The notes beneath the pieces were generated by a model that was not told the origin of the DNA, ran no database searches, and saw only the letters and a list, made by a program, of their open reading frames with translations. A program made the position numbers and the translations under genes. This document shows, one piece after another, positions 27,140 to 50,035 of a DNA stretch of 64,000 nucleotides. Source of the stretch: Butyrivibrio sp. LC3010 (GTDB taxonomy: Bacteria; Bacillota; Clostridia; Lachnospirales; Lachnospiraceae); NCBI RefSeq assembly GCF_000424385.1, contig NZ_AUJU01000005.1, forward strand, positions 62,001 to 126,000. Reading direction: 5' to 3'. Positions within the stretch are counted from its first letter, which is position 1. Every line of letters starts with the position of its first letter.

Positions 27140-27949
27140 ATGCCCGATATAAAGATCATTATAGCAACAACAAAAAAATATAGAATGCCAAGTGATCCGG
27201 TGTATATGCCTTTACAGGTGGGAGCAGGTCAGAAGAAGGCAGCTTCTACACCTTATGAAAAGGACAATACTGGGGATAATATTTCGCTTAAAAACAGCAG
27301 TTACTGTGAGCTTACAGGTTTGTACTGGGCTTGGAAAAATCTTAAAGCAGATTATATTGGACTTGTTCATTACAGAAGATATTTTGCTTCACCCGAGACC
27401 AGGGGAGAGGATGATCCCTTTAACAGGATCATGGGCGGTGAAGAGATTAAGCGTCTTTTGGCTAAAAATTGTATTATAGTACCTAAAAAGAGAAAGTATT
27501 ATATAGAGACTCTTCAATCGCATTATGCGCACACTCATTATGTGGAACAGCTTGATGAGACCGGTAAGGTCATAAAGGACCTTTATCCTGATTACATGGA
27601 ATCATTTGAGAGAGTGATGACTCAGACTTCAGGACATATGTTTAACATGTTTATAATGCGCAGGGATGTACTTGATAAGTATTGTGAGTGGCTGTTCAGT
27701 ATTCTCGCGGAGGTTGAGAACAGATATCCCGAGAAGAATTTGAGCGCTTATCAGGGGCGTTACATTGGAAGAATAGCAGAGCTCATATTTAATGTGTGGC
27801 TTGATTATCAGGTTACAACAGGAGCGATTCCCAGATACCAGATTCAGGAGCTGCCATGTGTACATATAGAGACGATTAATTGGTTAAAAAAGGGAGGAGC
27901 ATTCCTTGCAGCCAAGCTCTTCCATAAAAAATATGATCATAGTTTTTGA
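27140..27949 (+). CDS. DUF4422 capsular glycosyltransferase
   Basis: A 269-residue protein with DIKIIIATTKKYRMPSD, GLYWAWKNLKADYIGLVHYR and YQGRYIGRIAELIFNVWL, the pattern of DUF4422, found as a glycosyltransferase in capsule loci, sometimes as the C-terminal part of larger GTs. LVHYRR is the usual substrate-site segment. It has no membrane segment. AGAAGGAAA lies before the ATG. It precedes the first LtaS-like gene by 27 bases and so links the hexose-polymer and phosphopolyol parts of the locus. Confidence 0.85.
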   Translation: MPDIKIIIATTKKYRMPSDPVYMPLQVGAGQKKAASTPYEKDNTGDNISLKNSSYCELTGLYWAWKNLKADYIGLVHYRRYFASPETRGEDDPFNRIMGGEEIKRLLAKNCIIVPKKRKYYIETLQSHYAHTHYVEQLDETGKVIKDLYPDYMESFERVMTQTSGHMFNMFIMRRDVLDKYCEWLFSILAEVENRYPEKNLSAYQGRYIGRIAELIFNVWLDYQVTTGAIPRYQIQELPCVHIETINWLKKGGAFLAAKLFHKKYDHSF

Positions 27950-27976: not shown

Positions 27977-30748
27977 GTGGAAAGAAAATCAGGAAAAAGT
28001 GCTGTTGTCGGCATTGTTTATTTATTATTTATATTATTTGTTTCAGCTATTAGTTTTAAGCACATAACTGATTTTACAGGAAAAAGATATATTATCATAA
28101 GTGCTTTTCTGTTTGTGTTTGCGGCTTCTTCACCCTTTTTGCCGGGTAAAGTGAAGCGGGAGGCACCGAAAGCACTTTATATAGCAGGACTCATTCTTTA
28201 TCCGCTCCTGTGCTTCTATTTTACTGAAGCTGCACTGGAGACAGGATTTGATTTCCCAGGGAATGGATTAAAAATTATTCTGGGCAATTATGGACTGTAT
28301 GCACTTATCGTATGGTTCATTTTCGCGTTAACCCTATCTTACGGCATTTCGTTTTTTATTAGCGGACTGCTCTTTATTTCTTTTGGACTCGCAAATTATT
28401 TCACGGTTTTATACAGACAGGTTCCTATTCTAGCCGGTGATGTGGCAACAGCAGGAACGGCGATGAATGTGGCAGGACATTACAGCTATGAAATGGGAAT
28501 GCGTCAGTTCATGGCAATACAGTTCCTTTTGGCAACGTTGGCTTTTGCTCTGTTTTTCAGAGTGAAAATGGAAAAGAAGCCTGGCCTGTTAAAAAGGGTT
28601 TCAGTTGCAGCCATAGCGGTAGTAGTATTTTTATTTGCTGCAAGAACAATAGCTTTTAGTGATTTTTTGGAAAATCAGGGTATATCAGTTCATGTATGGA
28701 TACCTATTAAAACCTACAGACAAAAGGGCGGACTTCTGACTTTTGCCAGAAGCATCAGGAATATGGTAGTTGATAAGCCTGAAGGATATGATCCGAAAGA
28801 GATAGAAGAGCTTATGGAGACATATAACTCTGATTCCATATCTGATGATAAAGTAAGACCCAATGTGATCGCTATTATGAACGAGGCATTTTCTGATCTT
28901 CAGGATGTGGGGGATTTAAATACCAACATACCGGTTATGCCTTTTTATGACAGTCTTACGGAAAATACCATAAAGGGATGGAGCTATGTGTCGGTATTTG
29001 GTGGCCAGACAGCCAGCAGCGAGTACGAGTTTTTATCCAATGATTCCATGGCGTTTTTACCTGCGGGAACAACACCGTATCAGCTTTATATCAAGGATTT
29101 TATGCCAACCCTTACAGGGAATCTTCTCCTTGATAATTATTGCAGGGCGATAGCATTGCATCCTTACAAACCGAATGGATACAATCGTAATAACGTATAT
29201 CCCGCTCTGGGCTTCGATCAGTTTATTTCGGCTTCGGATTTCCCTGAGGATGTGGAGACTATGTCTGAGCACATCACTGATAATGCGGATTATGACAGAA
29301 TCATAGAGGAATATGAAAAGTCAAGGAAAGACAGTGATGAACCATTTTATATATTTAACGTGACCATGCAGAACCACGGACCTTTTTCAAATGATATGGA
29401 AAATGTGCCTGATGAAGTGAAAGTAACAGATGAAGAGCTGAACATGGAGGGTGTTCAGGATTATCTTAATCTTATACACGAGAGTGATAAGGCTTTGGAG
29501 AAGCTTGTTAAGTACTTTGAAAAAGTTGATGAGCCGACGGTTATAGTTTTCTTTGGGGATCATGAACCCGGAGTGGGAAACAGTTTTTATAATAAGCTGG
29601 TTGGCGGAAATAAGAATAACCTTGAGGGAGAGGAGCTTTTGAATCTGTATCACACGAAGTTCCTTATATGGGCAAATTATGACATACCCGAGGCGGATTA
29701 TTCCGGAGAAAACGGAATAAGCGTCAATTACCTTCAATCACTTATGCTGGATGCGGCAGGAATGAAGATGAGTGGATACAATAAATATCTTCTTGATGTG
29801 ATGAAGGAGGTTCCTATAGTTACTTCCAATGGGTATATTGGGGCTGACGGGAATTTCTATAACACAGATGACAGTACTTCGCCATATTATGAACGTATGG
29901 AGCAATACAGAAGACTTGTATACAACCATCTGTTTGATAAAAAGACAAGGGTGGATGATTTTTATGAGTTTTCATTGAGTAATCCGCAGGAAACAGCCCA
30001 AATAAGAAATGACCTTGTGGCGGAAAAGCATATAGTTCATGCAGGAGGATATATCGAATCGGTAGGCGGTGAGCAGATAAATTACACCAGCAGCGTGGAA
30101 GCGCTGAATAACTGCAATTCCAAGGGGAACAAATTCTGCGAGCTGGATTTTTTGATGACAACGGATAAAAAGCTCGTATGCGCCCATGCATGGAAGCAGC
30201 TCTATAAAGATGGTGAGCCCCTGGAAGAGGCGGTATCACTGGAGGATGCACTTTCCTGCAGGATGGAGAACGAATTTACACCCCTCTGGCTTGGAAGTCT
30301 TGTGGATTTCTTGAGAAGCCACGATGACTTGTATATCGTAACAGATATAAAACAGGACTATAACGCAGAGGGCGCGAAGATGATCGCGGAGTATTGCCCT
30401 GACCTTAAGGACAGATTTATAATTCAGGTTTACCATGAGGAAGAAGCAACGGTCATGGAGGAGCTTGGATTTAACAATATTATTTTTACGCTTTATAGAA
30501 CCGAAGAAGAGGAGCGGACAGCGGCTGCCCTTCTGGACGCTGCATCAAAGCATGACTTTGTTGCCTTTACTGCAAAAAAAGCCTTCATAAATGAGGAGTT
30601 TGTAGCTGATATCAAGGCTACTGGAATTCCGCTGTTTACACATACTGTAAATAGTGCCGATGAGATGAAGGAATTCATCAAGCTCGGAGTAGACGGCTTT
30701 TACAGTGATGTGGTGGATTTTGATAAAATAAAAGAGGAACTTGAATAA
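27977..30748 (+). CDS. LtaS-like phosphoglycerol transferase fused to a C-terminal GDPD-like phosphodiesterase domain
   Basis: A 923-residue fusion. Residues 1-235 hold about five or more membrane helices. Residues 290-665 form a sulfatase-fold catalytic domain outside the membrane, with IMNEAFSDL, the probable nucleophile Thr345 in GGQTASSEYEFL, NVTMQNHGPF and FFGDHEPG. This is the LtaS/MdoB type that moves phosphoglycerol from phosphatidylglycerol to a glycan or chain. Residues 680-923 add a GDPD/PI-PLC-like barrel with HAGG (His688), ELD (Glu722, Asp724) and the third-site His737 in CAHAW. The paralogue at 41677 ends just where this extra domain begins. Start is GTG 27977 with a weak AGTGGGA. 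Synthesis and cleavage of glycerophosphodiesters in one exported chain is unusual. Confidence 0.88.
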   Translation: MERKSGKSAVVGIVYLLFILFVSAISFKHITDFTGKRYIIISAFLFVFAASSPFLPGKVKREAPKALYIAGLILYPLLCFYFTEAALETGFDFPGNGLKIILGNYGLYALIVWFIFALTLSYGISFFISGLLFISFGLANYFTVLYRQVPILAGDVATAGTAMNVAGHYSYEMGMRQFMAIQFLLATLAFALFFRVKMEKKPGLLKRVSVAAIAVVVFLFAARTIAFSDFLENQGISVHVWIPIKTYRQKGGLLTFARSIRNMVVDKPEGYDPKEIEELMETYNSDSISDDKVRPNVIAIMNEAFSDLQDVGDLNTNIPVMPFYDSLTENTIKGWSYVSVFGGQTASSEYEFLSNDSMAFLPAGTTPYQLYIKDFMPTLTGNLLLDNYCRAIALHPYKPNGYNRNNVYPALGFDQFISASDFPEDVETMSEHITDNADYDRIIEEYEKSRKDSDEPFYIFNVTMQNHGPFSNDMENVPDEVKVTDEELNMEGVQDYLNLIHESDKALEKLVKYFEKVDEPTVIVFFGDHEPGVGNSFYNKLVGGNKNNLEGEELLNLYHTKFLIWANYDIPEADYSGENGISVNYLQSLMLDAAGMKMSGYNKYLLDVMKEVPIVTSNGYIGADGNFYNTDDSTSPYYERMEQYRRLVYNHLFDKKTRVDDFYEFSLSNPQETAQIRNDLVAEKHIVHAGGYIESVGGEQINYTSSVEALNNCNSKGNKFCELDFLMTTDKKLVCAHAWKQLYKDGEPLEEAVSLEDALSCRMENEFTPLWLGSLVDFLRSHDDLYIVTDIKQDYNAEGAKMIAEYCPDLKDRFIIQVYHEEEATVMEELGFNNIIFTLYRTEEEERTAAALLDAASKHDFVAFTAKKAFINEEFVADIKATGIPLFTHTVNSADEMKEFIKLGVDGFYSDVVDFDKIKEELE

Positions 30749-31678
30749 ATGGGTAATAAAAAAGCTATAGGAGCCGGTGACAGGAGACACTTTTTTAAGA
30801 CCGGCTTCAGGGGAGCACCGGGGACCTTTGAACTAAGTGATGAGCAGCTTAAGGAGTTGCAGAAGACTCTTCTGGAGATGCTTAAGGATTTCATAAAGGT
30901 CTTTGAAGAGGAAAAAATATTCTATACCCTGAGCGGTGGTTCCGTGCTGGGAGCCATAAGACATAAGGGCTTTATACCCTGGGATGATGACATTGATTTA
31001 AACATGCCCAGGAAGGATTTTGAACATTTAAAAGAAGTTTTCCACAAAAGGCTTGGGGATAAGTATGTCCTTTGCGGACCAGAATGTGGACGAGGCTATG
31101 GAATGTCCCATGTTCAGATCAAGAAAAAGAGAACTACCTATAAGGCTTTTAATGAACTTACAATGAAGGACACAGGTATTTTCATAGATATATTTATCCT
31201 GGAAAACACCTATGACAATCCGGTAAAAAGAAAGATACACGGTATGCTCTGTCTTGCTCTTGGATATATTCTGACCTGCAGGAAAACAGCGGAGGACTGG
31301 GAGGCATTAAAGCCATATCTCTCGGTCAATGAGGTATTAAGAGAGGCCTTTGAAAAGAAGATGAAATTTGGAAAACTCTTTAAATGGCTGAGCCTCGATA
31401 AAGTTGCCAAATGTGTTATTTATTGGTATTCTTACTGTGGTTTGGAGGATTCCAGGCTGGTCTGCATACCCAGCGGACGAAAGCATTATTTTGGTGAAAT
31501 GTACAAAAGAGAAGATATGTGCCAATCAAAGAATGCAGTTTTTGAAGGGTTAGATGTAAGGATTCCCAAGGGGACAAAGACCTATATGGAGATTCTTTAC
31601 GGACCGGACTATATGCAGATTCCCAAGGAAGAAGACCGAGAGATTCACTCGGCGGTAGCTTTGGATTTTGATAAATAA
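30749..31678 (+). CDS. LicD family phosphotransferase
   Basis: A 309-residue LicD/fukutin-type nucleotidyltransferase-fold protein. It has LSGGSVLGAIRHKGFIPW followed by the metal-binding DDDID at residues 79-83. LicD enzymes transfer phosphocholine, phosphoethanolamine-like groups or polyol phosphates from CDP-donors to glycans. An adjacent cytidylyltransferase (31809) suggests that the donor here is a CDP-polyol made next door. The protein has an unusual basic N-terminus and no membrane helix. The start ATG follows the previous stop by one codon step, with GAGGAA before it. Confidence 0.9.
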   Translation: MGNKKAIGAGDRRHFFKTGFRGAPGTFELSDEQLKELQKTLLEMLKDFIKVFEEEKIFYTLSGGSVLGAIRHKGFIPWDDDIDLNMPRKDFEHLKEVFHKRLGDKYVLCGPECGRGYGMSHVQIKKKRTTYKAFNELTMKDTGIFIDIFILENTYDNPVKRKIHGMLCLALGYILTCRKTAEDWEALKPYLSVNEVLREAFEKKMKFGKLFKWLSLDKVAKCVIYWYSYCGLEDSRLVCIPSGRKHYFGEMYKREDMCQSKNAVFEGLDVRIPKGTKTYMEILYGPDYMQIPKEEDREIHSAVALDFDK

Positions 31679-31712
31679 CCGTAAGTTTTGAGAAAAATTA
31701 TGTTTACGAGGA

Positions 31713-31784
31713 GGAACCATTATGACGAAGTCATGATTCGGAATGGTTCCGACCGATAGGGCAGGATTACGAAGTAATCGTGCC
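31713..31784 (+). promoter_or_regulatory. Twin hairpin leader before the cytidylyltransferase gene
   Basis: Two dyads with the same ACGAAGT core follow each other. The first pairs GGAACCATT (31713-31721) with AATGGTTCC (31742-31750) around an inner ATGAC-GAA-GTCAT stem. The second pairs GGCA-g-GATTAC with GTAATC-g-TGCC around a GAA loop (31760-31784). The start codon at 31809 follows GAGGAGGAGACC. An open frame from 31743 runs through the second hairpin, but encodes an unlike N-terminus. Confidence 0.65.
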
Positions 31785-31808
31785 AATACACAAAGAGGAG
31801 GAGACCTA

Positions 31809-32534
31809 ATGGCTAACATAGCAATCATAATTGCAGGTGGATCAGGACATCGTATGCAGCAGGATATTCCTAAACAGTTTATCAATGTGTATGATAAGCC
31901 TGTACTGATGTACACTCTGGAGGGATTTCAAAAGCATCCTCAGATTGATGCGATAGAGCTTGTATGTATCGACGGCTGGCAGGATATGGTTTGGGCTTAT
32001 GCCAAGCAGTTCAATATTACGAAATTAAAATGGATAGTTCCCGGCGGAGAGAGCGGACAGGAATCCATTAGAAATGGTGTGTTCAATCTTGAAGGTAAGG
32101 CTGAGGATGATGATATTATAATCATTCACGATGGAATAAGACCTCTTGTGGATGAGATGGTTCTTTCCGATGTAATTGTAGTATGTAAAAAGCATGGAAA
32201 TGCTGTGACATCCCTTCCTTATAATGAGCAGATCTTTGTTGTAAATGATGAGGAAGAGGGCACGACAAAAAAATATATTCCAAGAGAGACCTTAAGAAGA
32301 GTTTCAACACCGCAGGCTTATAAATTCGGTAAGCTCGACTGGGCATATCATGAGGCTTTTGAAAAAGGCATCGGAATTAAGGGCAGTGCTTATACCAATA
32401 CCATGATGGTTGATCTGGGAGAGAAACTATACTTTGCAGCAGGTTCTGATAAGAATATCAAGCTTACTACAAAGGACGACCTTGAGATGTTCAAGGCATA
32501 TCTTAAATCTGATAAGGATAACTGGTTAAAGTGA
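31809..32534 (+). CDS. IspD/TarI-type cytidylyltransferase (probable CDP-polyol synthesis)
   Basis: A 241-residue cytidylyltransferase. The CTP-binding N-terminus reads IIAGGSGHRMQQDIPKQF (about residues 7-24), then IIHDGIRPLVDE near 108 and TPQAYKFGKLDWAY. IspD (methylerythritol phosphate) and TarI (ribitol-5-phosphate) enzymes share this fold. Flanking LicD genes favour a CDP-polyol role, as with ribitol phosphate, glycerol phosphate or a related alcohol. No TarJ reductase is beside it. Start 31809 is set by GAGGAGGAG. Its stop overlaps the next GTG start by four bases. Confidence 0.88.
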   Translation: MANIAIIIAGGSGHRMQQDIPKQFINVYDKPVLMYTLEGFQKHPQIDAIELVCIDGWQDMVWAYAKQFNITKLKWIVPGGESGQESIRNGVFNLEGKAEDDDIIIIHDGIRPLVDEMVLSDVIVVCKKHGNAVTSLPYNEQIFVVNDEEEGTTKKYIPRETLRRVSTPQAYKFGKLDWAYHEAFEKGIGIKGSAYTNTMMVDLGEKLYFAAGSDKNIKLTTKDDLEMFKAYLKSDKDNWLK

Positions 32535-33370
32535 GAGAATCGGATGTTAAGGGGAAACGACTTTCCCTGCAGGAAATAAAAGATACTCAGCTGAATATTC
32601 TTCTTGAATTTGAGAAGATTTGTGATGAGAACGGACTTACTTTTTACCTCTGCGGAGGAAGCCTTCTGGGGGCAGTAAGACACAAGGGCTTTATACCCTG
32701 GGATGATGACATAGACATCTGCATGGCAAGACCGGAATATGACAGGCTCTGCAGGCTTGTAAAAAATGATGAACTCAAGTCTCCCGACTGGCTAAAGATA
32801 GTCTGCTATGACAACGGCACGTCCAGATTCCCTTTTATAAAGGTTCTTGATAAGCGAACAGTGGTGTTTAATGACTACTTCAGAGAAGAGGAATACGACA
32901 ATCTGTGGATAGATCTTCTTCCGGTGGATGGACTTCCGGATAAAGAGGAAGAAGTTGCAGATCTGTACAGGAGGGTTACTACCTATAGAAAATATGTACA
33001 GATGAAGCACATAAGACCTTTTGAAGGTAAGAGCTTATCCAAAAAGCTGGTAAAGCCTCTTCTTTTTCTTATAGCAAATATCGTAAATACTGACAGGTAT
33101 AATGATAAGCTAATAAGCGAGAGCTGCGCCTATCCATATGAAAAAGCGAAAAATGTTGGAATTGTAACTGAAGGCCTGTACGGCGTAAGGGAAGCTATTC
33201 CGAGAGAAGCTTATGAGAAGTGGATAGAAGTGGAATTTGAAGGGCATATGTTTAAAGCATGCTCATACTGGAACGAATATCTCCACAACCTGTTTGGAGA
33301 TTACATGCAGCTTCCTCCTGAGGACAAGAGGAAGACACATGATATGAAAGCCTACAGGCTTTATGATTAA
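32531..33370 (+). CDS. LicD family phosphotransferase
   Basis: A 279-residue LicD protein with LCGGSLLGAVRHKGFIPW and DDDID at residues 58-62. The middle has FREEEYDNLWIDLLPVDG, typical of full-length LicD enzymes. It starts at a GTG that overlaps the cytidylyltransferase stop by four bases, so the two are translationally coupled: the donor maker and the transferase. It shares the core motifs with the LicD at 30749 but is shorter at the N-terminus. Its stop overlaps that of the convergent GT2 gene. Confidence 0.92.
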   Translation: MRESDVKGKRLSLQEIKDTQLNILLEFEKICDENGLTFYLCGGSLLGAVRHKGFIPWDDDIDICMARPEYDRLCRLVKNDELKSPDWLKIVCYDNGTSRFPFIKVLDKRTVVFNDYFREEEYDNLWIDLLPVDGLPDKEEEVADLYRRVTTYRKYVQMKHIRPFEGKSLSKKLVKPLLFLIANIVNTDRYNDKLISESCAYPYEKAKNVGIVTEGLYGVREAIPREAYEKWIEVEFEGHMFKACSYWNEYLHNLFGDYMQLPPEDKRKTHDMKAYRLYD

Positions 33371-36194: not shown

Positions 36195-36260
36195 AACGGG
36201 TAAATAATTGCTATTATAGATGTTTGGTGTAGTAATTAAATTTTGAAGAGTAAGAGAGAT

Positions 36261-37064
36261 ATGAGAATCAGTAATAAGATAAAAAAAGGAATAAGAAAGG
36301 CAAAATCTTACAAATTCCTGTTTGAGGAACTTGTACAGAGAGACTTTAATCAGAAATATAAGCGAACCATACTTGGTATGGGATGGAGTATTTTATCCCC
36401 GCTTCTTCATCTTCTTGTAATGAAGATAGTGTTCACACAGTTTTTTGGAAGAGGTAAGAATTCACTTTATTATACGACCTACCTTTTTTCGGGAAATATA
36501 ATGATGTCCTTCTATAAGGAAGCTACGAAGAACGGAATGAGCTCACTGTTTAAGGAACGAAGGATTCTTCAGAAGATAAATGTTCCGAAATATCTGTTCC
36601 TGTTGTCAAAGAACGTGTCGGCTTTTGTTAATTTTATGCTGACGCTGGTGGTATTTTTCATATTCTGTTTCTTTGACAAGATAAAGTTCGGACCGCATAT
36701 GCTTATGATCCTGTATCCGATATCTACATTGCTTATCATGAATATCGGAATAGGAATGATTTTATCAGCGCTTTATGTCTTTTTCAGAGACATTCAGTAT
36801 CTGTATGACGTATTTTTGACACTTTTGGGATATTTGTCAGCTATATTCTATCATGTAGAGGATTTCAATAATGTTATGATCCAGAGGGCATTTCTGCTGA
36901 ATCCCGTTTATGTCATGATAAAGTATGTCAGAGTTGTTGTAATGGAGTGCACCATACCTTCAATAGAGTATCATGTGCTTTGCGCTTTTTATGCACTGTT
37001 TTATCTGGCAATAGGCTTGTGGATTTATAAGAGATACAACCACGAGTTTGTTTACTACCTGTAA
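36261..37064 (+). CDS. ABC-2 type polysaccharide/teichoic acid export permease (TagG/Wzm)
   Basis: A 267-residue permease with six membrane helices and the signature N-terminal cytoplasmic stretch LVQRDFNQKYKRTILGMGWS, found in Wzm/TagG proteins. It forms the channel half of an exporter for polymer built in full on a lipid carrier inside the cell. The ATPase gene follows at 37181. The ATG at 36261 has AGAGAG before it; a TTG at 36243 is also in frame, but less likely. Confidence 0.9.
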   Translation: MRISNKIKKGIRKAKSYKFLFEELVQRDFNQKYKRTILGMGWSILSPLLHLLVMKIVFTQFFGRGKNSLYYTTYLFSGNIMMSFYKEATKNGMSSLFKERRILQKINVPKYLFLLSKNVSAFVNFMLTLVVFFIFCFFDKIKFGPHMLMILYPISTLLIMNIGIGMILSALYVFFRDIQYLYDVFLTLLGYLSAIFYHVEDFNNVMIQRAFLLNPVYVMIKYVRVVVMECTIPSIEYHVLCAFYALFYLAIGLWIYKRYNHEFVYYL

Positions 37065-37180
37065 TATGATGGCGTCAGTGTTGGATTTATATAAAGAGAG
37101 CACTTGGTGGGGCTTACGGGCTTTATGGAGAATGTTAAGACCGTAATAGTTATAATACAGGCAAAGATTTAGGAGTACAC

Positions 37181-38122
37181 ATGTCAGTAATAGAATGTAA
37201 TGATGTTAGTATCCGTTATATCACCGGAGACTTAAAGGCAATTGGATTAAAGGAATTCGTGGTAAGAAAGCTCAGTGGTAACTATCATGTGGAGGAATTC
37301 TGGGCAGACAGACACATAAATTTCAAGCTTGAAAAGGGAGAAATGCTTGGTATCATCGGTTCTAACGGAGCGGGTAAGAGTACAATACTTAAAGCTATTT
37401 CCCAGATACTTCTTCCCGTTGAGGGAACTATCAAGGTTAATGGAACAATAGCAGCGCTGCTTGAGCTTACCAGTGGCTTTGATGAAGATATGACAGTTAA
37501 GGAAAATGCGTACCTGCGTGGTGCCATGCTTGGTTATACAAGGCAGTTTATGGATGAGAGATACCGTGAGATAATCCAGTTTGCCGAGCTTGAGAAGTTT
37601 GAGGATTATCAGTTTAAACAGTTATCAAGCGGAATGCGAAGCAGACTGGCCTTTTCCATCGCATGTCTTGTGGATCCGGATGTACTGATTCTGGATGAGG
37701 TTTTATCTGTTGGTGACGGAGCTTTCAGAGAAAAGAGCGGAAATAAGATGAGAGAGATACTTAAAAAAGGTATCACTGCAATTCTTGTATCACACTCCAT
37801 ATCTCAGGTCAGAGAGCTATGCGATAAGATACTGTGGCTTGATCATGGTAAACAGATTGCGTTTGGCAGCGATGTAGAGAAGCTTTGTGACGCTTATGAG
37901 GAATTCCTTCAGACGATGAAGATTCCGCAGTCACAGGCCGACATAGATAAGCTTGCAGCAGACTTTAAGATCCGCAAGGAGAAAGAAGTCAAGGAACAGA
38001 CCTCAGAGCTTAGAAAGATGATGGGGACAGTTCCGGAGGATGAAGCATATAGAGCAGCTATTGGTTTTCTTAAAGAGAAATTCCCCGAAACACTCAGGGA
38101 TATTGATAAGTTGAGAGATTAG
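37181..38122 (+). CDS. ABC export ATPase (TagH/Wzt-like)
   Basis: A 313-residue ATPase. Walker A GSNGAGKST starts at residue 60, the signature is LSSGMRSRL at 148 and Walker B VLILDEVLSVGD has Asp172-Glu173. It belongs to the Wzt/TagH/RfbE type, with a helical, charged C-terminal tail of about 75 residues (from 240) rather than a full carbohydrate-binding module. With the permease at 36261 it exports a finished polymer. The 116-base gap before it has a TTACGG/CCGTAA dyad and a TATAAT at 37151-37156 with no good -35. Confidence 0.92.
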   Translation: MSVIECNDVSIRYITGDLKAIGLKEFVVRKLSGNYHVEEFWADRHINFKLEKGEMLGIIGSNGAGKSTILKAISQILLPVEGTIKVNGTIAALLELTSGFDEDMTVKENAYLRGAMLGYTRQFMDERYREIIQFAELEKFEDYQFKQLSSGMRSRLAFSIACLVDPDVLILDEVLSVGDGAFREKSGNKMREILKKGITAILVSHSISQVRELCDKILWLDHGKQIAFGSDVEKLCDAYEEFLQTMKIPQSQADIDKLAADFKIRKEKEVKEQTSELRKMMGTVPEDEAYRAAIGFLKEKFPETLRDIDKLRD

Positions 38123-40462: not shown

Positions 40463-41677
40463 ATGGCATTTAAGGAGTGGAGACAATCCACTGAGGATTT
40501 TATTATAAGATGGGTTTCCAGAAAGATAGTTTTTCCTGTGATGTTTTTCATCGGGAGCCGTAGACCCATTAAAGAAAATAAGGTGGTTTTTCTGGAGCTG
40601 AGACTCCTTTCACTTTCTAATAATCACAAGGAGCTGTATAAGAGGCTTACTGAAGATTATGATATGGATGTGAAATGCGTGTTTTTCAGGATTGGAACTG
40701 ACAGACGCCGGGAGATATACAAGCATTATTCAGAGTATATCTGGGAGGCCTCTGATGCAAAATACCTTATATTCAGCGAAGGAAATGATGTTCATGCCTG
40801 TGTGCCCAAGAGAAAAGGACAGCATCAGTTAAATACCTGGCATGCTGCAGGGGCTTTTAAGAGATTCGGACTTTCCACGGCTACGAAGCTTTTTGGGGAT
40901 ACCGCTGATAACATGAAAAGATTTCCCTCCCACGGGAATTATGATCTTGTAACGGTAAGCTCTCCAGAGATTGAGTGGGCTTATATAGAAGCCATGGGAA
41001 AAGAGAAAGACCCTGAATGCATTAAGGCAGTGGGACTTTCAAGAACGGACGTTTTCTATAAGGATGGCGAAAAGAAGGAAGCCTTCGAGAGATTCTATAA
41101 GCAGTTTCCTGAGGCTAAAGGCAAAAAAGTAATACTTTACGCACCGACCTTCAGAGGGAAGACTGTTGGTGCCGAAACTCCGGATAAACTTTCTGTAGAG
41201 AAGTTTTTTGAGAGATTGAGTGATGAGTATGTCCTTGTGTTCAAGCATCATCCTATTGTACATAAAAGACCTGCGATTCCTGAAAAATACAGTTCTTTTG
41301 CTAAGGACCTTTCAGACAGCATGACTATAGAAGATCTGCTTTTTGTAAGTGACATCTGTATTAGCGATTATTCATCTCTGATTTATGAATATTCACTTTT
41401 TGAAAAGCCTATGATCTTTTTTGCCTATGATCTGGATGACTATTTTGACTGGAGAGGTTTTTATTATAACTATGATGAACTGACTCCGGGACCTGTCTAT
41501 AAGACTAACGAAGAAATCCTTGATTATATCGAAAACATCGATGAGAGATTCGACAAAGAAGAAGTAAGAAAATTCAAGGAGCGGTTTATGAGTGCGTGCG
41601 ATGGCCATGCAACTGACAGAATCATGAAAATGTTCTTTGAGCCATCACTTGAGAAGTATAAGAAGAAAGAAAAATAA
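40463..41677 (+). CDS. CDP-glycerol (polyol) phosphotransferase, TagF/TarB type
   Basis: A 404-residue GT-B-type enzyme that moves glycerol (or other polyol) phosphate from a CDP-donor to a growing chain at the membrane. The key residues are visible: WHAAGAFKRFG with His127 and KHHP with His262-His263, matching the two catalytic-histidine regions of TagF. SDICISDYSSLIYEYSLFEKP is the typical donor-binding strand. The N-terminus is basic and amphipathic for membrane contact. Its stop overlaps the LtaS-like gene start by one base. Confidence 0.93.
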   Translation: MAFKEWRQSTEDFIIRWVSRKIVFPVMFFIGSRRPIKENKVVFLELRLLSLSNNHKELYKRLTEDYDMDVKCVFFRIGTDRRREIYKHYSEYIWEASDAKYLIFSEGNDVHACVPKRKGQHQLNTWHAAGAFKRFGLSTATKLFGDTADNMKRFPSHGNYDLVTVSSPEIEWAYIEAMGKEKDPECIKAVGLSRTDVFYKDGEKKEAFERFYKQFPEAKGKKVILYAPTFRGKTVGAETPDKLSVEKFFERLSDEYVLVFKHHPIVHKRPAIPEKYSSFAKDLSDSMTIEDLLFVSDICISDYSSLIYEYSLFEKPMIFFAYDLDDYFDWRGFYYNYDELTPGPVYKTNEEILDYIENIDERFDKEEVRKFKERFMSACDGHATDRIMKMFFEPSLEKYKKKEK

Positions 41678-43677
41678 TGACTAAGAACAACAGAGTTTTA
41701 AAAATAATTTACCTGGTAATTGCGGCAGTGGTAACGGTTTTCGGGCTTAGTCTGGTAACGGATTACACAGGAAAAAGATATATTGTTCTGACTGCCTGCT
41801 TTTTATTATTTGCATTTGCATTTCCGTTTATCTGTGACAAAATGCGAGGAATCCTGGATAAGTGGCCAAGATATGTGGTGCTTTTGATATATCCTTTTAT
41901 ATGCTACTACCTTACAGAGTGCGCTTTGGATACTACATATTCGATAATAGGAAGTAAGCTTAAGGTTATAGTTGGTAATTACGGGCTGTACGCTTTGCTT
42001 CTCTGGTCGATTTATGCTTTTACCTTATCCCTTAGATGGTCATTATTTATTTCGGGAGTGCTCTCAGGGATGTTCGGTGTTGTGAACTATTATGTAATCA
42101 AGTTCAGGCAGATACCGATTCTGGCAGGGGATATAGCTACAACAGGAACAGCACTAAACGTTGCAAGCGATTATGAGTATTCATATACCATAAAACAGTT
42201 TATGATGATCGCATTTATTCTTGCCTGCTTTTCATTTTTCCTTTTTTACAGATCCGGAAATGAGAAGAGAAGAGATCCCCGATTCAGACTTATAATTGCA
42301 GGACTTGGAGCGGTTGTTGTTATCTCATCCGCATATACACTGGCAGGAACGGACTTCCTTAAAAACCATGGCATTACGATCAATACTTTCATGCCGATAA
42401 AGTCTTATCGAAATAACGGAGGACTTTTAACTTTTACCAGAAGCATACGTACAATGGTGATTGATAAGCCCAAGGGCTACAGCATAAATACCATAACGGA
42501 GCTTCAGGAAAAATACCCTTCGGATAAAGTATCCGCTGATACAGATGCCAAGAGACCGAATGTAATAGTAATTATGGATGAGGCATTTGCTGATCTTCAG
42601 GATGTGGGCGTGCTTCATACTGATAAAGAGGTAATGCCTTTTTATGACAGTCTGACAGAGAACACGATAAAGGGCAGAAGCTATGTTTCAGTCTTTGGTG
42701 GTCAGACGGCTAATACAGAGTATGAGTTTTTAAGTAATGATTCCAAGGCGTTTCTTCCTGCGGGAACTACGCCATATCAGCTCTATATTAAGAGTTTTAT
42801 TCCGACACTTACTCAGAATATGATTCTTGATAACTACAGCGGAATACTTGCACTTCACCCTTATAAGGCAAGCGGGTATAACAGACAGAATGTTTATCCG
42901 TACATGGGATTTTCTGATTTCATTACTGTGGCTGATTTTGCTGAGGATACACATACTATCGGCGGACACGTTGATGATAAAGAGGACTTTGCAAGAATTA
43001 TTGAGGAATATGAGAAGGCAAAGAGTGAAAATTCAGAGCCATTTTATATTTTCAATGTTACCATGCAAAATCACAGTCCTTACGTTGGAGAGTGGGAAAA
43101 TCTTCCTGATGAAATAGATATTCTTGATGATAACCTGAAGCAGGATGGCGTTGAGAATTATCTTAATCTCATTCATGAGAGTGATGATGCACTTAAAGGA
43201 TTGGTTGAGTATTTTGAAAAAACGGATGATCCCACGGTAATAGTTTACTTTGGAGATCACGAGCCGGGACTTTCTGATGAGTTCTACAATGAGCTTCTTG
43301 GAGCTGAGAAGAACAGCCTTAAGGGACTTGAGCAGATGAATCTGTATCACACCAGATTCCTTATCTGGGCGAACTATGATATACCTGAAGAAAACTATGT
43401 TTTTGAAGATGGTATAAGCATAAATTACCTTCAGTCTGTTATGCTTGAAGCCTGCGGAATGAAGATGAGCGGATATAATAAGTATCTGCTGGATCTTATG
43501 AAGGATGTTCCTATCATAAATGCCAATGGCTACGTTGGAGCAGATGGTAAGTTTTATGAAGTGGACGATAAGACTTCACCCTACTACAATGAGATCAATG
43601 TATACAACACACTTTGCTACAACCATCTTTTTGATAAAAAGAACAGGGTGGATTCGTTCTTTGAATATGGGGAGTGA
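41677..43677 (+). CDS. LtaS-like phosphoglycerol transferase, single-domain paralogue
   Basis: A 666-residue paralogue of the protein at 27977. It has about five or more N-terminal membrane helices, then a sulfatase-fold domain with VIMDEAFADLQDVG, GGQTANTEYEFLSNDS carrying the probable nucleophile Thr344, NVTMQNHSPY and VYFGDHEPG. It ends at FFEYGE, the point where the other paralogue continues into a GDPD-like domain. It should transfer phosphoglycerol from phosphatidylglycerol to an extracytoplasmic acceptor. Start overlaps the TagF-like stop (TAATG). Confidence 0.9.
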   Translation: MTKNNRVLKIIYLVIAAVVTVFGLSLVTDYTGKRYIVLTACFLLFAFAFPFICDKMRGILDKWPRYVVLLIYPFICYYLTECALDTTYSIIGSKLKVIVGNYGLYALLLWSIYAFTLSLRWSLFISGVLSGMFGVVNYYVIKFRQIPILAGDIATTGTALNVASDYEYSYTIKQFMMIAFILACFSFFLFYRSGNEKRRDPRFRLIIAGLGAVVVISSAYTLAGTDFLKNHGITINTFMPIKSYRNNGGLLTFTRSIRTMVIDKPKGYSINTITELQEKYPSDKVSADTDAKRPNVIVIMDEAFADLQDVGVLHTDKEVMPFYDSLTENTIKGRSYVSVFGGQTANTEYEFLSNDSKAFLPAGTTPYQLYIKSFIPTLTQNMILDNYSGILALHPYKASGYNRQNVYPYMGFSDFITVADFAEDTHTIGGHVDDKEDFARIIEEYEKAKSENSEPFYIFNVTMQNHSPYVGEWENLPDEIDILDDNLKQDGVENYLNLIHESDDALKGLVEYFEKTDDPTVIVYFGDHEPGLSDEFYNELLGAEKNSLKGLEQMNLYHTRFLIWANYDIPEENYVFEDGISINYLQSVMLEACGMKMSGYNKYLLDLMKDVPIINANGYVGADGKFYEVDDKTSPYYNEINVYNTLCYNHLFDKKNRVDSFFEYGE

Positions 43678-43683
43678 CACTGC

Positions 43684-45399
43684 TTGAAAAGGTATTTTAA
43701 TATTTTAAAGGAAAAGGGCTTTGTTATAGCTGATGTGATAGCATCACTGTTTTTTGCCTTTTTCCTCACAGTTGGATATTCCGTTAAAACTACAGGCGGG
43801 ATAGAACTTATAAAGAATAATCTGATAAAGAGCATTGCAGAGTATCTTGGATATTCTGTTATGCTCTTTGTCGCGTTTTCTGTGGCAGCAATGCTTGTGG
43901 ATATTGCTGTAGAGAAGGACAGTATAAGGATTGTAGGAAAAGGCATGTTTGGGGCTTATTTGAAATACTTGAGGGAAAAGCCGTTTGTCACCACTTTCAT
44001 TACTCTTTTTATATGCTTTCTGCCTTTCTTTGTGGCGGCATTCCCCGGCCTTGTTATGTCTGATAATAAGGCGCAGCTTGCCGGAGCCTTTAATACTGCA
44101 TCCTTTAACCATTATGCTGTGGACTATACAGGTTCAAAGCTTGATAACCATCATCCGATTTTGCATACGCTTTTACTATATGGATGTATCAGATTGGGAG
44201 TAGTGATCTTTGGTTCCTTTAATGCAGGACTATTTCTTTACACCCTGATACAGTTTTTGTTCATGCTGTGCTGCTTTTCATATGTTGTAAAAATCTTCAC
44301 GGAATATGGTTTTTCTGATTTCTGGAATATCGTTTTTATGTTATATGTGCTTTTTGCGGGAGGACATCTTACAAGGTACATGTTTCTTGCTACTAAGGAC
44401 ATCATATACACAGGATTCATGCTGCTTTTTCTGTCAGGAGCATTTAAGATTTTCAAGGATAAGAAAATGAATTTCATGCTCATTTTTTCAGGGCTTGGCA
44501 TGATGGCTTTCAGGAAAGATGCCTACTATATTCTTTTGCTTTCTTTAATATTTGCAATTATTCTTGTTTCATGGAAAAGAAGAACCGGGTGGACCTTGAT
44601 CATAGCTTTAGTGCTGATAGGTATCGTGGTGGTTCATTCTCTTTGGAATAATGCGCTTCTTCCGGCAGCAGGAATCATGCAGGGGAGTAAGCGAGAAATG
44701 CTGTCTCTGCCATTTCAGATGACGGCCAGATATGTCAGAGACTGCGGAAATGATGTTACTGAAGAAGAAAAAAACGCAATTGATGCGGTTCTTTCGTATG
44801 ACACCCTTGCAGAGGAATATAATCCAAGGCATTCATCTCCGGTAAAAAACGGTTTTAAAGAGGACTCCACATCTGATGATATGAAGAACTATTTTAAAGC
44901 GTTTTTCTCAATGATGAAGAAGCATCCCAATGTTTATTTCTATGCGCTATTGGAATTTAAGTATGAGCTGTTTTATCCGGTGCCTTTTAATAAGGCATAT
45001 TACAACTATGATTCTGCTCAGAAAACTATGGGAGAATTGAACGAGATACTTAAGGATGAGGGAGCAGACTTTTCGTTTCCAAAATCAGAAGCTTTAACGG
45101 GATATAGAGGAGTTATTTACAGCATACAGACCGCATTATCAACTTATCCTGTAATCGGCATTTTCAGCTCTTCATCGACATATACCTGGACGCTGATTCT
45201 TCTTGCTTTATATGCGATTGTAAGAAAAAATAAATATGTATTTTTAATGTGTGTGCCGTTCCTTGCGATAATAGCACTTTGTATTGTTGGACCGCAGAGC
45301 GGAGCTCACATCAGATACTTATATCCTATACAGATGGCGATGGTTCCACTTATTGCCATGTCCATGAATATTTTCAGAAACTGCCAAAGGAGCAATTAA
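43684..45399 (+). CDS. DUF6020-type multi-pass membrane protein
   Basis: A 571-residue protein with about twelve membrane helices. An outer loop has SDNKAQLAGAFNT and KLDNHHPILHTLLLYG, the Asp and His-His-Pro pattern that marks DUF6020, a GT-C-like group. A large extracytoplasmic region lies near 330-445. I infer a lipid-linked sugar transferase or polymer-modifying role, as with other GT-C proteins in such loci. The start is a TTG at 43684 with GGGGAG before it, six bases after the previous stop. Confidence 0.7.
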   Translation: MKRYFNILKEKGFVIADVIASLFFAFFLTVGYSVKTTGGIELIKNNLIKSIAEYLGYSVMLFVAFSVAAMLVDIAVEKDSIRIVGKGMFGAYLKYLREKPFVTTFITLFICFLPFFVAAFPGLVMSDNKAQLAGAFNTASFNHYAVDYTGSKLDNHHPILHTLLLYGCIRLGVVIFGSFNAGLFLYTLIQFLFMLCCFSYVVKIFTEYGFSDFWNIVFMLYVLFAGGHLTRYMFLATKDIIYTGFMLLFLSGAFKIFKDKKMNFMLIFSGLGMMAFRKDAYYILLLSLIFAIILVSWKRRTGWTLIIALVLIGIVVVHSLWNNALLPAAGIMQGSKREMLSLPFQMTARYVRDCGNDVTEEEKNAIDAVLSYDTLAEEYNPRHSSPVKNGFKEDSTSDDMKNYFKAFFSMMKKHPNVYFYALLEFKYELFYPVPFNKAYYNYDSAQKTMGELNEILKDEGADFSFPKSEALTGYRGVIYSIQTALSTYPVIGIFSSSSTYTWTLILLALYAIVRKNKYVFLMCVPFLAIIALCIVGPQSGAHIRYLYPIQMAMVPLIAMSMNIFRNCQRSN

Positions 45400-45402
45400 C
45401 AG

Positions 45403-47835
45403 ATGAGTTTTTTTGATAACAGACATGTTAAAGGCAGGAGCTTTAAGAGTTCTGCATCAGCCAACACCAGTCTGTCAGCAAATTTCAACAGAATACTTAC
45501 AAGAAAGATAATGTTTCCCTTAATCTATCATTTTTATGCGCTAAAACCGGTTAAGGATGATAAGGTCATTTTTCTGGAGATAAGATTCGGTGAACTTACG
45601 GATAGCTACAGAGAGCTTTTTAACTATCTTGTAAGAAATTATGAGATGGATATACACTGTCATTTTTTGAGACAGGGCTTTGTGAATAACAGGCAGGAGC
45701 TGAAAAGGCAGATAGACTTTATAAAGGATGCCGCCACTGCAAGATACCTTATTTACAATGACAGCAGTGATACGCAAGGGTCCTTTAAAGTCAGACGCGG
45801 AACCCATGTGATGAACGTGTGGCATGCTGCCGGAGCCTTTAAGAAGTTCGGCAACAGCACCGCAGACAAGCTCTATAATGACGGAAAAAAGGGAGTGGTC
45901 TACAGACTCCATCCAAAGTATGACCTTGTTACGGTATCAAGTCCTGAAGTCGAGTGGGCCTATGCTGAAGCTATGGGCATGGATAGCTCCTGTGTAAAGG
46001 GAATTGGAATATCAAGATCTGATGTATTTTACAGAGATGATTTCAAAAGGAAAGCCTATGAGCATCTCCTTGATGAAATGCCTGCTGCAAAAGGCAAAAA
46101 GGTACTTCTCTATGCACCTACTTTCAGGGGGATTCCCAGAAATGCCATGACACCGGACATGTTTGATATAGGTAAGTTCTACAGCCATTTCAAGGATGAC
46201 TATGTTTTGCTGGTAAAGCATCATCCTCTTGTTAAGAACAAACCACAGATATCTTCTGAGTACTCGGATTTTGCCAGGGATATGACTGATGCCATGAGTA
46301 TAGATGAACTTTTATGTGTAACGGATATCTGTATTACGGATTATTCCTCACTTATTTTCGAATACTCCATATTTGAAAAACCAATGCTGTTTTTTGCATA
46401 TGATCTGGCTAATTATTTTGACTGGAGAGGATTCTATTACAACTTTGATGAGCTTACCCCCGGACCAGTATGCTATACAAATGCAGAAATGATAGATTAT
46501 ATCGAGCATGTTGACGAGCGTTTTGACAAAGCCAGGGTCCATGCCTTCAGAGAGAGGTTCATGAGTGCCTGTGACGGGCATGCTACAGAGCGTATTGCCA
46601 GGGAGTTTTTTGGCAGCAGGCTTGATAAATATAAGAGAACAGAACCTGTAAAAGGCGACTTTACTGATCTTCCGGAGGTTAAAAGCCTTTTTGGCACAGA
46701 ACAGAAGCGGATAGCTGAAATGGAAAAACTCAGGAAAAAGGCAAGGCGCGCTTACGATAATGGAAAAACAAAACCGATAGTTCCCGGAAGAGTAGTGTTG
46801 CTCGGAGATGAGAATTCTGACTGGGATGTTTTTCTCGGTGCAAAGAGAATTCTTGAAAAGGAAGCTGAGAGTAGCGGAAAAAAGTGGGAGATTCTTGAGG
46901 ATATAAAGTATAACAGCGACAACATTGAAACTTTTTGTGAAAAGCTATCCTGTGCAGAACGTATTTACTGTGCAGGCGAACCTTATATCTTAAGGATGTT
47001 TGATGTAAGACCTGAAACTCTTATGATCCAGATAAGCCCTGAGCTTAGACCACTGTATCCTCTGTGGGGAGCTTCGAAGGCATCAAGAAGCGGATATAAT
47101 GTTAAGGAAACCAGGCTTTTCCCTGTTAAATCCGCTTATGATGTTGTCTATGGCAGCACAAAGGAAGAGGAAGAGTTCTGGAGGAAAAATTATAGACTGA
47201 GAAGTGGCGGCGTGATAAAAACAGACAAGAATCCGACACTTCTAATGCTTGGTGATGAGACTTACAAAGAAGAGGCAAGAACGAGGCTTCAGCAAATAAT
47301 CCCATATGCGAAGGATAAGAAAGTCATCGGCTTTATCTGCAGGGACAGAGAGCAGCTTGATGGAAAGCTTGCTAAGCTGTTTACAAAAATGCATGAGGAT
47401 TTTGCGAGAACCACTATTTGTGTCTGCATGGCAGTGGATGGTAAGCCGGGAAGTGTTGTTACAGTTCCTGATTATCTTGAGGGATTTGTGTTTGATCCAA
47501 GGAGAAGCCTTGCTGAAATGGTGGCAATGCAGGGAGCACAGGGAGGCGACCGGGAGAAGTTCCAGATGACAGGCGCAGCGGATGCAGATTACAAAAATAT
47601 GCCTCCACTTTCAGTAAATGAGCTTATATCAGCATCAGATGCGGTCGTAGCTGATTACAGTCCCAGAGCATTTGCTGCAATAGAAGCTGAAAAGCCGCTG
47701 TTTTTATGGATGCCTGACAAGATTGGATACAGTAAGGTTCAGGAAGAATATTTAAGTATTGCTGAATTGTATCCAGATTTATGTGTGACTTCAGATGCTG
47801 AACTGATAGACAAACTTAAAAAACTGATTAAATAA
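45403..47835 (+). CDS. TagF-like CDP-polyol phosphotransferase with a second, degenerate TagF-like half
   Basis: An 810-residue protein. Residues 1-415 are a full TagF-like enzyme: WHAAGAFKKFG with His141, KHHPLV with His273-His274 and TDICITDYSSLIFEYSIFEKP. Residues 465-810 look like another copy of the same fold: LRPLYPLWGASKASRSGYN matches the first-histidine region but lacks the histidine, YDVVYGSTKEEEEFW matches YDLVTVSSPEVEWAY, and SDAVVADYSPRAFAAIEAEK (745-764) matches SDICITDYSS. The KHHP equivalent reads RDREQL. So the second half likely binds substrate or membrane but is not catalytic. Charged helical residues 430-465 link them. Confidence 0.86.
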   Translation: MSFFDNRHVKGRSFKSSASANTSLSANFNRILTRKIMFPLIYHFYALKPVKDDKVIFLEIRFGELTDSYRELFNYLVRNYEMDIHCHFLRQGFVNNRQELKRQIDFIKDAATARYLIYNDSSDTQGSFKVRRGTHVMNVWHAAGAFKKFGNSTADKLYNDGKKGVVYRLHPKYDLVTVSSPEVEWAYAEAMGMDSSCVKGIGISRSDVFYRDDFKRKAYEHLLDEMPAAKGKKVLLYAPTFRGIPRNAMTPDMFDIGKFYSHFKDDYVLLVKHHPLVKNKPQISSEYSDFARDMTDAMSIDELLCVTDICITDYSSLIFEYSIFEKPMLFFAYDLANYFDWRGFYYNFDELTPGPVCYTNAEMIDYIEHVDERFDKARVHAFRERFMSACDGHATERIAREFFGSRLDKYKRTEPVKGDFTDLPEVKSLFGTEQKRIAEMEKLRKKARRAYDNGKTKPIVPGRVVLLGDENSDWDVFLGAKRILEKEAESSGKKWEILEDIKYNSDNIETFCEKLSCAERIYCAGEPYILRMFDVRPETLMIQISPELRPLYPLWGASKASRSGYNVKETRLFPVKSAYDVVYGSTKEEEEFWRKNYRLRSGGVIKTDKNPTLLMLGDETYKEEARTRLQQIIPYAKDKKVIGFICRDREQLDGKLAKLFTKMHEDFARTTICVCMAVDGKPGSVVTVPDYLEGFVFDPRRSLAEMVAMQGAQGGDREKFQMTGAADADYKNMPPLSVNELISASDAVVADYSPRAFAAIEAEKPLFLWMPDKIGYSKVQEEYLSIAELYPDLCVTSDAELIDKLKKLIK

Positions 47836-49140: not shown

Positions 49141-49172
49141 AAGAGGCAGTCAAAATGATTTGACTGCCTCTT
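49141..49172 (+). terminator. Strong intrinsic terminator after the beta-helix gene
   Basis: AAGAGGCAGTCAAA (49141-49154) pairs perfectly over 14 bases with TTTGACTGCCTCTT (49159-49172) around an ATGA loop, 38 bases after the stop. The following bases are AT-rich rather than a long T tract. It separates the beta-helix gene from the GDPD-like gene. Confidence 0.85.
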
Positions 49173-49222
49173 CATATAATAAACGCGCGGCAATCTATTT
49201 CTTGAGCCGCATAGGAGGTTAT

Positions 49223-50035
49223 GTGAAAAGAGTAATACAAGCTGCAATAGCGATAATGCTTGCAATTATTTTATTACCGGGCAGAGCCATGGCTGAGAGT
49301 CCTGTTGTTAATCAGACACTTTTCCCGGAAGATATAAAGGATAGAAAAATAGTTCATGCCTGTGGTGAGTATAACGGAGTAAGACATGCTAATTGCGAAG
49401 AGGCACTTTTGGAAGCTATAGATAAAAACAGAAGAGTTATTGAGATTGACTTTATGTTCACATCAGACAATGTGCTTGTTTGCGATCATGCTTTTATTAC
49501 ATTCGGAAGGAAGACTGTTTCCTATGATGAGTTTCTTAGCTCAAAACCAGATGAAGAAGGAACGGCCATGACTGCCAGACGGGCAATTAAGCTCTTGAAA
49601 AATACTGATATTAAACTGATCGTGGATACCCAGGAACCAAAACTTGTTACGGTGTATAAAGAGCTTAAAAAGATATGCAGGAAGGAAAAGGCTGAAAAGT
49701 ATTTCGAGAATATAGTTCCTCAGATTTATTATGAGAAACAGTACAGAGAGCTTGAAAGCTTCAATAATTTTCCGGAATACATTTTTGAAGCCTACAGACT
49801 AACCGGAGCTCCTAAAAAAGGCGGGCATGCGGATTTTAAATACTTCAGAAAAATCTGCAGAAGACGTAAGAAAATAAGATATATCGCATTTTATACAGAT
49901 TATGTAAACAAAAATGCGGTGAGCATATTCCAAAAAATAGGAGTTGGAGTTATTGCTCATCCCGTAAATACTATTTCGAAGTACAGGCAGCTAAGGAAAA
50001 TGGGTGTTACAGCTGTCATGACAGATGTTTTGTAG
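49223..50035 (+). CDS. Secreted GDPD/PI-PLC-like phosphodiesterase
   Basis: A 270-residue protein with a signal peptide (KRVIQAAIAIMLAIILLPG, cut after AMA). It has the family catalytic set: His45 in VHACG, Glu74-x-Asp76 in IEIDF and His89 in CDHAF. It would hydrolyse glycerophosphodiesters outside the cell. It is related to the C-terminal domain of the fusion at 27977. I prefer GTG 49223, since AGGAGG (49213-49218) lies before it and the frame's earlier start at 49160 is inside the terminator hairpin. The ATG at 49221 is out of frame. Confidence 0.84.
   Translation: MKRVIQAAIAIMLAIILLPGRAMAESPVVNQTLFPEDIKDRKIVHACGEYNGVRHANCEEALLEAIDKNRRVIEIDFMFTSDNVLVCDHAFITFGRKTVSYDEFLSSKPDEEGTAMTARRAIKLLKNTDIKLIVDTQEPKLVTVYKELKKICRKEKAEKYFENIVPQIYYEKQYRELESFNNFPEYIFEAYRLTGAPKKGGHADFKYFRKICRRRKKIRYIAFYTDYVNKNAVSIFQKIGVGVIAHPVNTISKYRQLRKMGVTAVMTDVL

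Follow-up and report, generated by a model that had tools for sequence, protein, structure and literature searches.

Glycerol-phosphate decorations alter the charge of the cell wall and how antimicrobial proteins act on it. In group A Streptococcus they are added to the side chains of the group A carbohydrate (GAC) by GacH, loss of which leads to greater resistance to lysozyme, histones and a secreted phospholipase (PMC8807736). LtaS-type enzymes form lipoteichoic acid, an sn-1 product (PMC7086022). The removal or limiting of such decorations is less clear than their addition: in the literature searched no enzyme is presented as removing those made by phosphoglycerol transferases, the action of the glycerophosphodiesterase (GDPD) GlpQ on lipoteichoic acid being a partial case (PMC7086022). 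Here we describe a gene from a 64,000-nucleotide stretch of the rumen-type bacterium Butyrivibrio sp. LC3010 (Lachnospiraceae; contig NZ_AUJU01000005.1, positions 62,001 to 126,000 of the forward strand), the whole of which is called the window. Its product joins a GacH-like phosphoglycerol transferase to a GDPD domain (Table 1) and, judged from its sequence, appears to be one membrane protein capable of both attaching glycerol-phosphate to a surface polymer and cutting glycerol-phosphate bonds.

The reading frame is free of internal stop codons. PF00884 (Sulfatase) is passed at residues 295-595 (E 5.8e-32, 111.6 bits, cut-off 25) and PF03009 (GDPD) is passed with 44.3 bits (cut-off 23.6, E 3.2e-11), the best-matching stretch being confined to residues 801-914. 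The seam between the two halves lies at about residues 668-676, so that the boundary at residue 680 given in a preliminary description of the window was about right. Full-length homologues occur in genome G005 (80% identity; genomes, loci and contigs are cited by G, L and C numbers) and in Butyrivibrio sp. AC2005 (78%), which makes three genomes with this fusion; it is therefore no sequencing error, and the joined protein first described is real. Both halves are under purifying selection in the comparison with G005 (pN/pS, the proportions of nonsynonymous and synonymous differences, 0.12/0.67 in the transferase half and 0.13/0.74 in the GDPD half, with synonymous sites close to saturation). 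A simple hydropathy scan finds seven hydrophobic segments at the N terminus (residues 9-222). Judged from these membrane segments, both domains probably share an extracytoplasmic location, in line with the exported polypeptide originally proposed.

The closest solved structures to the transferase half by sequence are those of GacH (5wcx/5u9z, E about 3e-22), followed by lipoteichoic acid primase (9e-11), and the curated LtaS model (NCBIfam NF053595) is absent among the NCBIfam matches of the fusion at E <= 0.01. By these comparisons the transferase half is nearer GacH than LtaS; the earlier assignment as a phosphoglycerol transferase holds, and the LtaS class given with it fits less well. GacH (PDB 5u9z, 5wcx, 6dgm) is the best solved-structure match and has the same catalytic motifs, although its chains match only residues 266-562 of the fusion, contain no GDPD-like match, and belong to a different host with a different acceptor polymer. 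The GGQTA motif that includes Thr345 aligns with GGGTA of GacH. E303, T345, D528 and H529 align with GacH motifs, H395, R404 and H467 lie on those motifs or around them, and none of the seven residues varies among the four close relatives in the alignment. T345 would be the catalytic residue, with metal presumably bound by E303, D528 and H529.

By sequence, the GDPD half comes closest among solved structures to GP-PDE domains of phage proteins (9f49, E 8.5e-7). A model of the isolated C-terminal domain, built on an alignment of just 3 sequences, has a mean predicted local distance difference test score (pLDDT) of 81, and with it Foldseek returns GDPD structures with E down to 7e-10 and probability 1.00. 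The best 44 matches are nearly all GDPD-type enzymes, with 2 entries labelled glucanase; the matches include GlpQ of Bacillus subtilis. As modelled, residues 680-923 thus have the TIM-barrel GDPD fold on which the preliminary description depended. The GP-PDE domain of staphylococcal phage tail proteins (phage K gp155, phi812 central spike; 9f5m/9f49, 9eul) is the top match by both Foldseek and sequence. As in the fusion, this domain is carried on a larger protein, but the phage protein has no matched transferase half, and the literature searched gives no substrate for it. GlpQ (PDB 5t91, 5t9b, 5t9c), a stand-alone enzyme, shares fold and catalytic scheme: its His43/His85 correspond to His688/His737, Glu70/Asp72 to Glu722/Asp724, Gln188 to Gln817 and, in our reading, Glu152 to Asp790. 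All 17 GDPDs aligned, two of them from the window, have His688, Glu722, Asp724 and His737, and Asp790 is kept in all 19 intact domains among 21 aligned. The residues named at the outset (Thr345, His688, Glu722, Asp724, His737) are therefore in place. One position differs. The His-Arg motif at the first catalytic histidine of GlpQ (His43-Arg44, where Arg44 binds phosphate according to PMC7086022) is replaced by His688-Ala689 in the fusion, and the Arg44 position is Ala or Gly in 19 of the 19 catalytically intact domains, that of the fusion included.

The association of this GDPD subfamily with transferases extends beyond the fusion. The GDPD half is matched in 80 of the 392 genomes of the order sample; 63 of these, at E <= 1e-10, were used and 17 weaker ones omitted. 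In 13 of the 63 the GDPD is fused to a Sulfatase-family protein or lies within 6 kb of one, against an expectation of 0.76 derived from the Sulfatase matches per genome (P 4e-13); some stretches in this count stop at a contig end, and in several loci (e.g. L080, L083, L113), among the matches listed, co-location rests on six-frame coordinates. With genera as the unit, 9 of 29 show the link (P 1e-8); leaving out the three fusion genomes gives 10 of 60 (P 1e-9). Since the genomes are related the P values are optimistic, and the genus count is safer. Proximity is found in 9 of 11 genomes of the window's own family and in 4 of 52 elsewhere. Within the genus (37 genomes), both halves are matched in 10 genomes, the GDPD alone in none, the transferase alone in one and neither in 26; the corresponding numbers for the 20 genomes at least 90% complete are 9, 0, 0 and 11. 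OpgB-like proteins are not scored in these genus counts.

The partners resemble three transferase classes: GacH-like in the window cluster, LtaS-like in G049, G067 and G041, and OpgB/MdoB-like in G329, G390, G170, G335, G036 and on contig C2 of the LC3010 genome itself, all LtaS and OpgB/MdoB NCBIfam matches falling under the curated cut-offs. The OpgB/MdoB-like proteins, which resemble phosphoglycerol transferase I (about 155-179 bits, curated cut-offs 572-574), are neighbours of the GDPD subfamily and are not the class fused in the window; the one in G036 is a 998 aa (amino acid) gene about 5 kb from the GDPD in a profile scan. In LC3010 the fusion, its unfused paralogue and the C2 gene each have a GDPD of the subfamily fused or within 6 kb (three Sulfatase matches were counted and two places listed, the C2 gene being taken as the third). 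With partners of three classes, the common trait is their expected glycerol-phosphate product, and this points to that product, or a derivative of it, as the GDPD substrate. The fused or side-by-side occurrence in related bacteria suggests a built-in add-and-remove system for surface decoration. The making-and-cutting function first suggested fits this evidence from gene neighbourhood and from presence and absence.

Other arrangements of GDPD and transferase genes also occur. A three-gene operon recurs in the genus (L032:5370-12696, L033, L034, L037) and encodes an LtaS-like protein, a protein of about 1106-1194 aa and a GDPD bearing an extra N-terminal domain of about 450 aa; in our reading of the L032 sequence the second protein resembles a glycosyltransferase with a C-terminal EAL-like part. 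In G292 four tandem phosphoglycerol-transferase-like genes (822-858 aa, the first truncated where the locus ends) are followed by a GDPD (L043:2-10141), and the contig has at least five Sulfatase matches. The LtaS-like protein of G041 (L036:6129-8408) has an extra C-terminal tail that we read as resembling S-layer homology repeats and adjoins a divergently oriented GDPD gene.

Fusions of this kind are rare but, in the genomes compared, recurrent. Among 61 genomes (LC3010 included) no single match besides that in G005 spans the whole length of the protein; both halves are matched in one frame in G049, which is a different fusion. Sulfatase-GDPD chains occur in 3 of the 392 order-sample genomes (LC3010, G049 and G067), a count that leaves aside frames of 590-612 aa in G148, G349 and G197. 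In the class sample (291 genomes; threshold E 1e-10, five longest frames besides that of LC3010 examined) one other fusion, in G890, has both halves intact, with Ser replacing the nucleophilic Thr. In the phylum sample (398 genomes) the fusion is present only in LC3010 among the matches listed, and none of six other long GDPD frames checked, a set without the 619 aa frame of G586, has a transferase domain. The order, class and phylum samples overlap. In other Clostridia, the LtaS-GDPD chains of G049 (836 aa), G067 (837 aa) and G890 (837 aa) have the same order of membrane part, Sulfatase and GDPD and the same GDPD subfamily, although the GDPD of G890 reaches 19.4 bits against the Pfam cut-off of 23.6 while matching the subfamily profile at 1e-62. 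In G049 and G067 the transferase half is LtaS-like (277 and 312 bits against NF053595, which has a cut-off of 970) and not GacH-like, and their GDPDs form a separate clade; these fusions are therefore independent of that in the window, and the architecture arose more than once. Fusions with the same domain order thus persist with different transferase classes and intact residues. A unique architecture, considered at first, is ruled out by these other clostridial fusions, and equally it is far from frequent in these samples. The earlier statement that no well-described enzyme has this domain order stands in so far as neither the fusion nor the GDPD-transferase pairing is described, and no biochemical work on this protein reported, in the literature searched, which is weak evidence of absence as subscription papers lie mostly outside its scope; uniqueness does not stand.

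From architecture, conservation, synteny and co-occurrence we tentatively favour, at somewhat short of an even chance, a reading in which the protein is both writer and eraser of glycerol-phosphate decorations at the outer membrane face; both activities, their substrate and the action of the eraser on the writer's product are what we infer. Homology suggests that the GacH-like half would take glycerol-phosphate from phosphatidylglycerol via Thr345 and place it on the polymer made and exported by the cluster. We take the GacH product to be sn-1 glycerol-phosphate, and an sn-glycerol-1-phosphate linkage would be expected here. The C-terminal half, on homology and conservation, would hydrolyse glycerophosphodiesters via His688 and His737, with a metal held by Glu722, Asp724 and Asp790. 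Coupling of the halves would set the amount of glycerol-phosphate retained on the polymer, or recycle it; proofreading or length control could also be served by the fusion.

Several observations weigh against this reading, and the main difficulty is stereochemical. The action of GlpQ is confined to sn-glycerol-3-phosphoryl groups, and intact lipoteichoic acid is left uncut (PMC7086022); if the GDPD half shares this sn-3 preference, it could not directly erase the sn-1 product of the writer. Either the GDPD subfamily differs from GlpQ or it acts on another diester, and the Ala at the Arg44 position is a candidate reason for a differing stereopreference. In addition, the GDPD has no visible Sulfatase-family neighbour within 6 kb in 50 of the 63 genomes, 36 of which belong to one other family. 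Matches to the fusion protein somewhere in the genome, mostly via the transferase half among the matches listed, are found in 281 of the 392 order-sample genomes against 80 for the GDPD half, which means that the transferase is mostly found without this GDPD; the 49% identical relative SIG303 has none in its 17.8 kb locus. In the class-sample fusions of G934 and G966 the transferase motifs are intact and the GDPD catalytic residues lost, and in that of G1069 the transferase residues are lost and the GDPD is intact; the two activities are therefore not inseparable. Finally, the full-length model (mean pLDDT 40) is too poor to place the domains relative to each other.

A broader proposal, doubtful but worth stating, is that the 'HAGG' GDPD subfamily consists of dedicated erasers of the sn-glycerol-1-phosphate added by GacH-, LtaS- and OpgB-type transferases, as the stereochemical counterpart of GlpQ. 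The fusion could then edit a surface polymer on its own, adding and removing glycerol-phosphate. The subfamily is in any case a concrete, testable candidate for the removal or limiting of such decorations, and with the fused protein a single construct is enough to assay writer and eraser one at a time.

Among the alternatives, it is unlikely, but less so than the others, that the GDPD half acts on a different diester from its partner's product and that the fusion merely co-locates the two. The substrate could then be backbone or side chains derived from cytidine diphosphate (CDP)-polyols by TarL-like and LicD enzymes (sn-3), or a lipid such as lysophosphatidylglycerol. The GDPD slot directly precedes the LicD and cytidylyltransferase genes in the LC3010 operon, G011 and G036, and the cluster has two TarL-like enzymes. 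GlpQ is sn-3-specific (PMC7086022); it is an exolytic hydrolase of wall teichoic acid. One known GDPD among the Foldseek matches, 8ghh, acts as a lysophosphatidylglycerol phospholipase D (PMC10404611). Against this, G013 and G027 have LicD and cytidylyltransferase genes at the same locus without the GDPD, and no TarL-like match is found in the fetched stretches of other pairs (L030, L032-L037, L041-L043, L047, L052-L054, L057; BLASTP E 1e-4 with the window genes). The recurring GDPD partner is for this reason the Sulfatase-family transferase.

The half-decayed fusions raise a second alternative, in which the GDPD half mainly binds the polymer or positions the transferase, catalysis being secondary or absent in practice. 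G934 and G966 would fit, having retained a GDPD-like domain beside intact transferase motifs despite the loss of its catalytic residues. Such a role is nonetheless distinctly unlikely for the fusion described here: all catalytic positions are intact in it and in its two closest relatives, the domain is under purifying selection, and stand-alone GDPDs from the same operon slot hold the same residues with no transferase joined to them.

This slot, between the DUF4422 and LicD genes, bears on the origin of the fusion. It is occupied by a stand-alone GDPD in G011 (L028, 309 aa, 62% identical) and G036 (L031, 338 aa, 66%), each with a single N-terminal hydrophobic segment, for which reason they too would sit outside. 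It is empty in G013 and filled by three other genes in G027, one with a Sulfatase domain. In trees, the fused GDPDs and the two stand-alone slot GDPDs form one clade (100/100), nested in a larger group (98/98) of GDPDs without a joined transferase, and no transferase is joined to the nearest outgroup GDPDs. The transferase halves of the fusions group in a clade of their own (100/100), distinct from the unfused paralogues of G000 and G005 (100/99). Most likely, to judge from these sequences, the operon already had a GDPD, whose membrane anchor was replaced by a second copy of the cluster's transferase; given that two relatives have a stand-alone GDPD in the syntenic slot, the transferase copy more likely joined the GDPD than the reverse. 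The splitting of an older fusion is a less simple account and one that calls for new membrane anchors. A clean gain of the GDPD by a transferase of the paralogue's type, as proposed in the preliminary description, is set aside in view of the slot contents of G011, G036, G013 and G027 and of the outgroup GDPDs; the direction was probably the opposite, although the unfused paralogue does lack the extra domain, ending in the alignment where the GDPD of the fusion begins.

With regard to the slot itself, the three genes in G027 (L074:11411-17270) encode a YidC/60KD_IMP-Sulfatase fusion of 921 aa, a TarF/TarL-like transferase and a fused nucleotidyltransferase-aminotransferase of 610 aa. From its contents, the slot resembles an exchangeable cassette for decoration, in G027 perhaps with an aminated phospho-group.

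A chance join of operon neighbours, retained as harmless, would be favoured by the separate GDPD and transferase genes that lie adjacent or at most 0.5 kb apart in G029, G026, G389 and G101. It is very unlikely all the same, given that same-order fusions arose with different transferase classes and intact residues and that this one is conserved in three genomes differing by about 20% in protein sequence. Hardly credible is a chain-transfer role, with the GDPD half passing glycerol-phosphate from a first to a second acceptor in a two-step assembly instead of removing it: such a relay between two outer-face active sites would account for the three partner classes, but no sequence feature favours transfer over hydrolysis and we know of no GDPD-fold glycerol-phosphate transferase.

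Table 1. Features of the fusion gene, its surroundings and decayed relatives (window positions unless a locus is given)
Feature	Coordinates	Strand	Basis
Fusion gene, GacH-like phosphoglycerol transferase and GDPD, 923 aa, GTG start	27977..30748	+	Open reading frame, Pfam; full-length homologues in G005, AC2005
Transferase module, residues 1-668	27977..29980	+	Hydropathy scan; end coincides with end of unfused paralogue
Sulfatase-superfamily catalytic domain, residues 295-595 (E303, T345, H395, R404, H467, D528, H529)	28859..29761	+	Pfam, alignments
Codon of putative nucleophile Thr345	29009..29011	+	Translation, GacH alignment
GDPD domain, residues 676-923	30002..30745	+	Pfam, alignment, structure model, Foldseek
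His688 codon (30038-30040) via Glu722, Asp724 to His737 codon (30185-30187)	30038..30187	+	Translation, alignments
DUF4422 protein, left border of variable slot	27140..27949	+	Pfam, synteny
LicD-family phosphotransferase, right border of slot	30749..31678	+	Pfam, synteny
IspD/TarI-like cytidylyltransferase, start taken as ATG at 31809	31809..32534	+	Pfam, NCBIfam
Second LicD-family phosphotransferase	32531..33370	+	Pfam
Gene pair similar to a polysaccharide/teichoic-acid ABC exporter, scoring under curated cut-offs	36243..38122	+	NCBIfam
TarL/TarF-like polyol-phosphate transferase (Glyphos_transf)	40463..41677	+	NCBIfam
Unfused transferase paralogue, 59% identical to the fusion's transferase	41677..43677	+	Pfam, comparison, tree
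Second Glyphos_transf (TarL-like) polyol-phosphate transferase	45403..47835	+	Homology search
Second, divergent membrane-anchored GDPD in the cluster, 24% identical	49160..50035	+	20.8 bits against Pfam cut-off 23.6; four catalytic residues present
One-half-decayed fusions	L123:6363-8339 (G1069), L124:3184-5634 (G934), L125:265-2703 (G966)		Residue alignment

The surrounding genes are closely packed: the fusion starts 27 bases downstream of the DUF4422 gene, and the ATG of the LicD-family gene directly adjoins its stop codon. With its TarL-like and LicD enzymes, cytidylyltransferase and exporter, the cluster likely makes a phosphate-rich surface polymer, as far as gene content can tell. A DUF6020 membrane protein (43684-45399) lies between the unfused paralogue and the second TarL-like gene. 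A GA-cis RNA (Rfam RF02987, 53.8 bits) at 31706-31794 immediately precedes the cytidylyltransferase gene; an open reading frame called from 31743 reads through this RNA, and the ATG shown in Table 1 is the likelier start. The GA-cis element is repeated in the genome, with 39 matches to a 94-base query, its own included, and some of the copies are in tandem.

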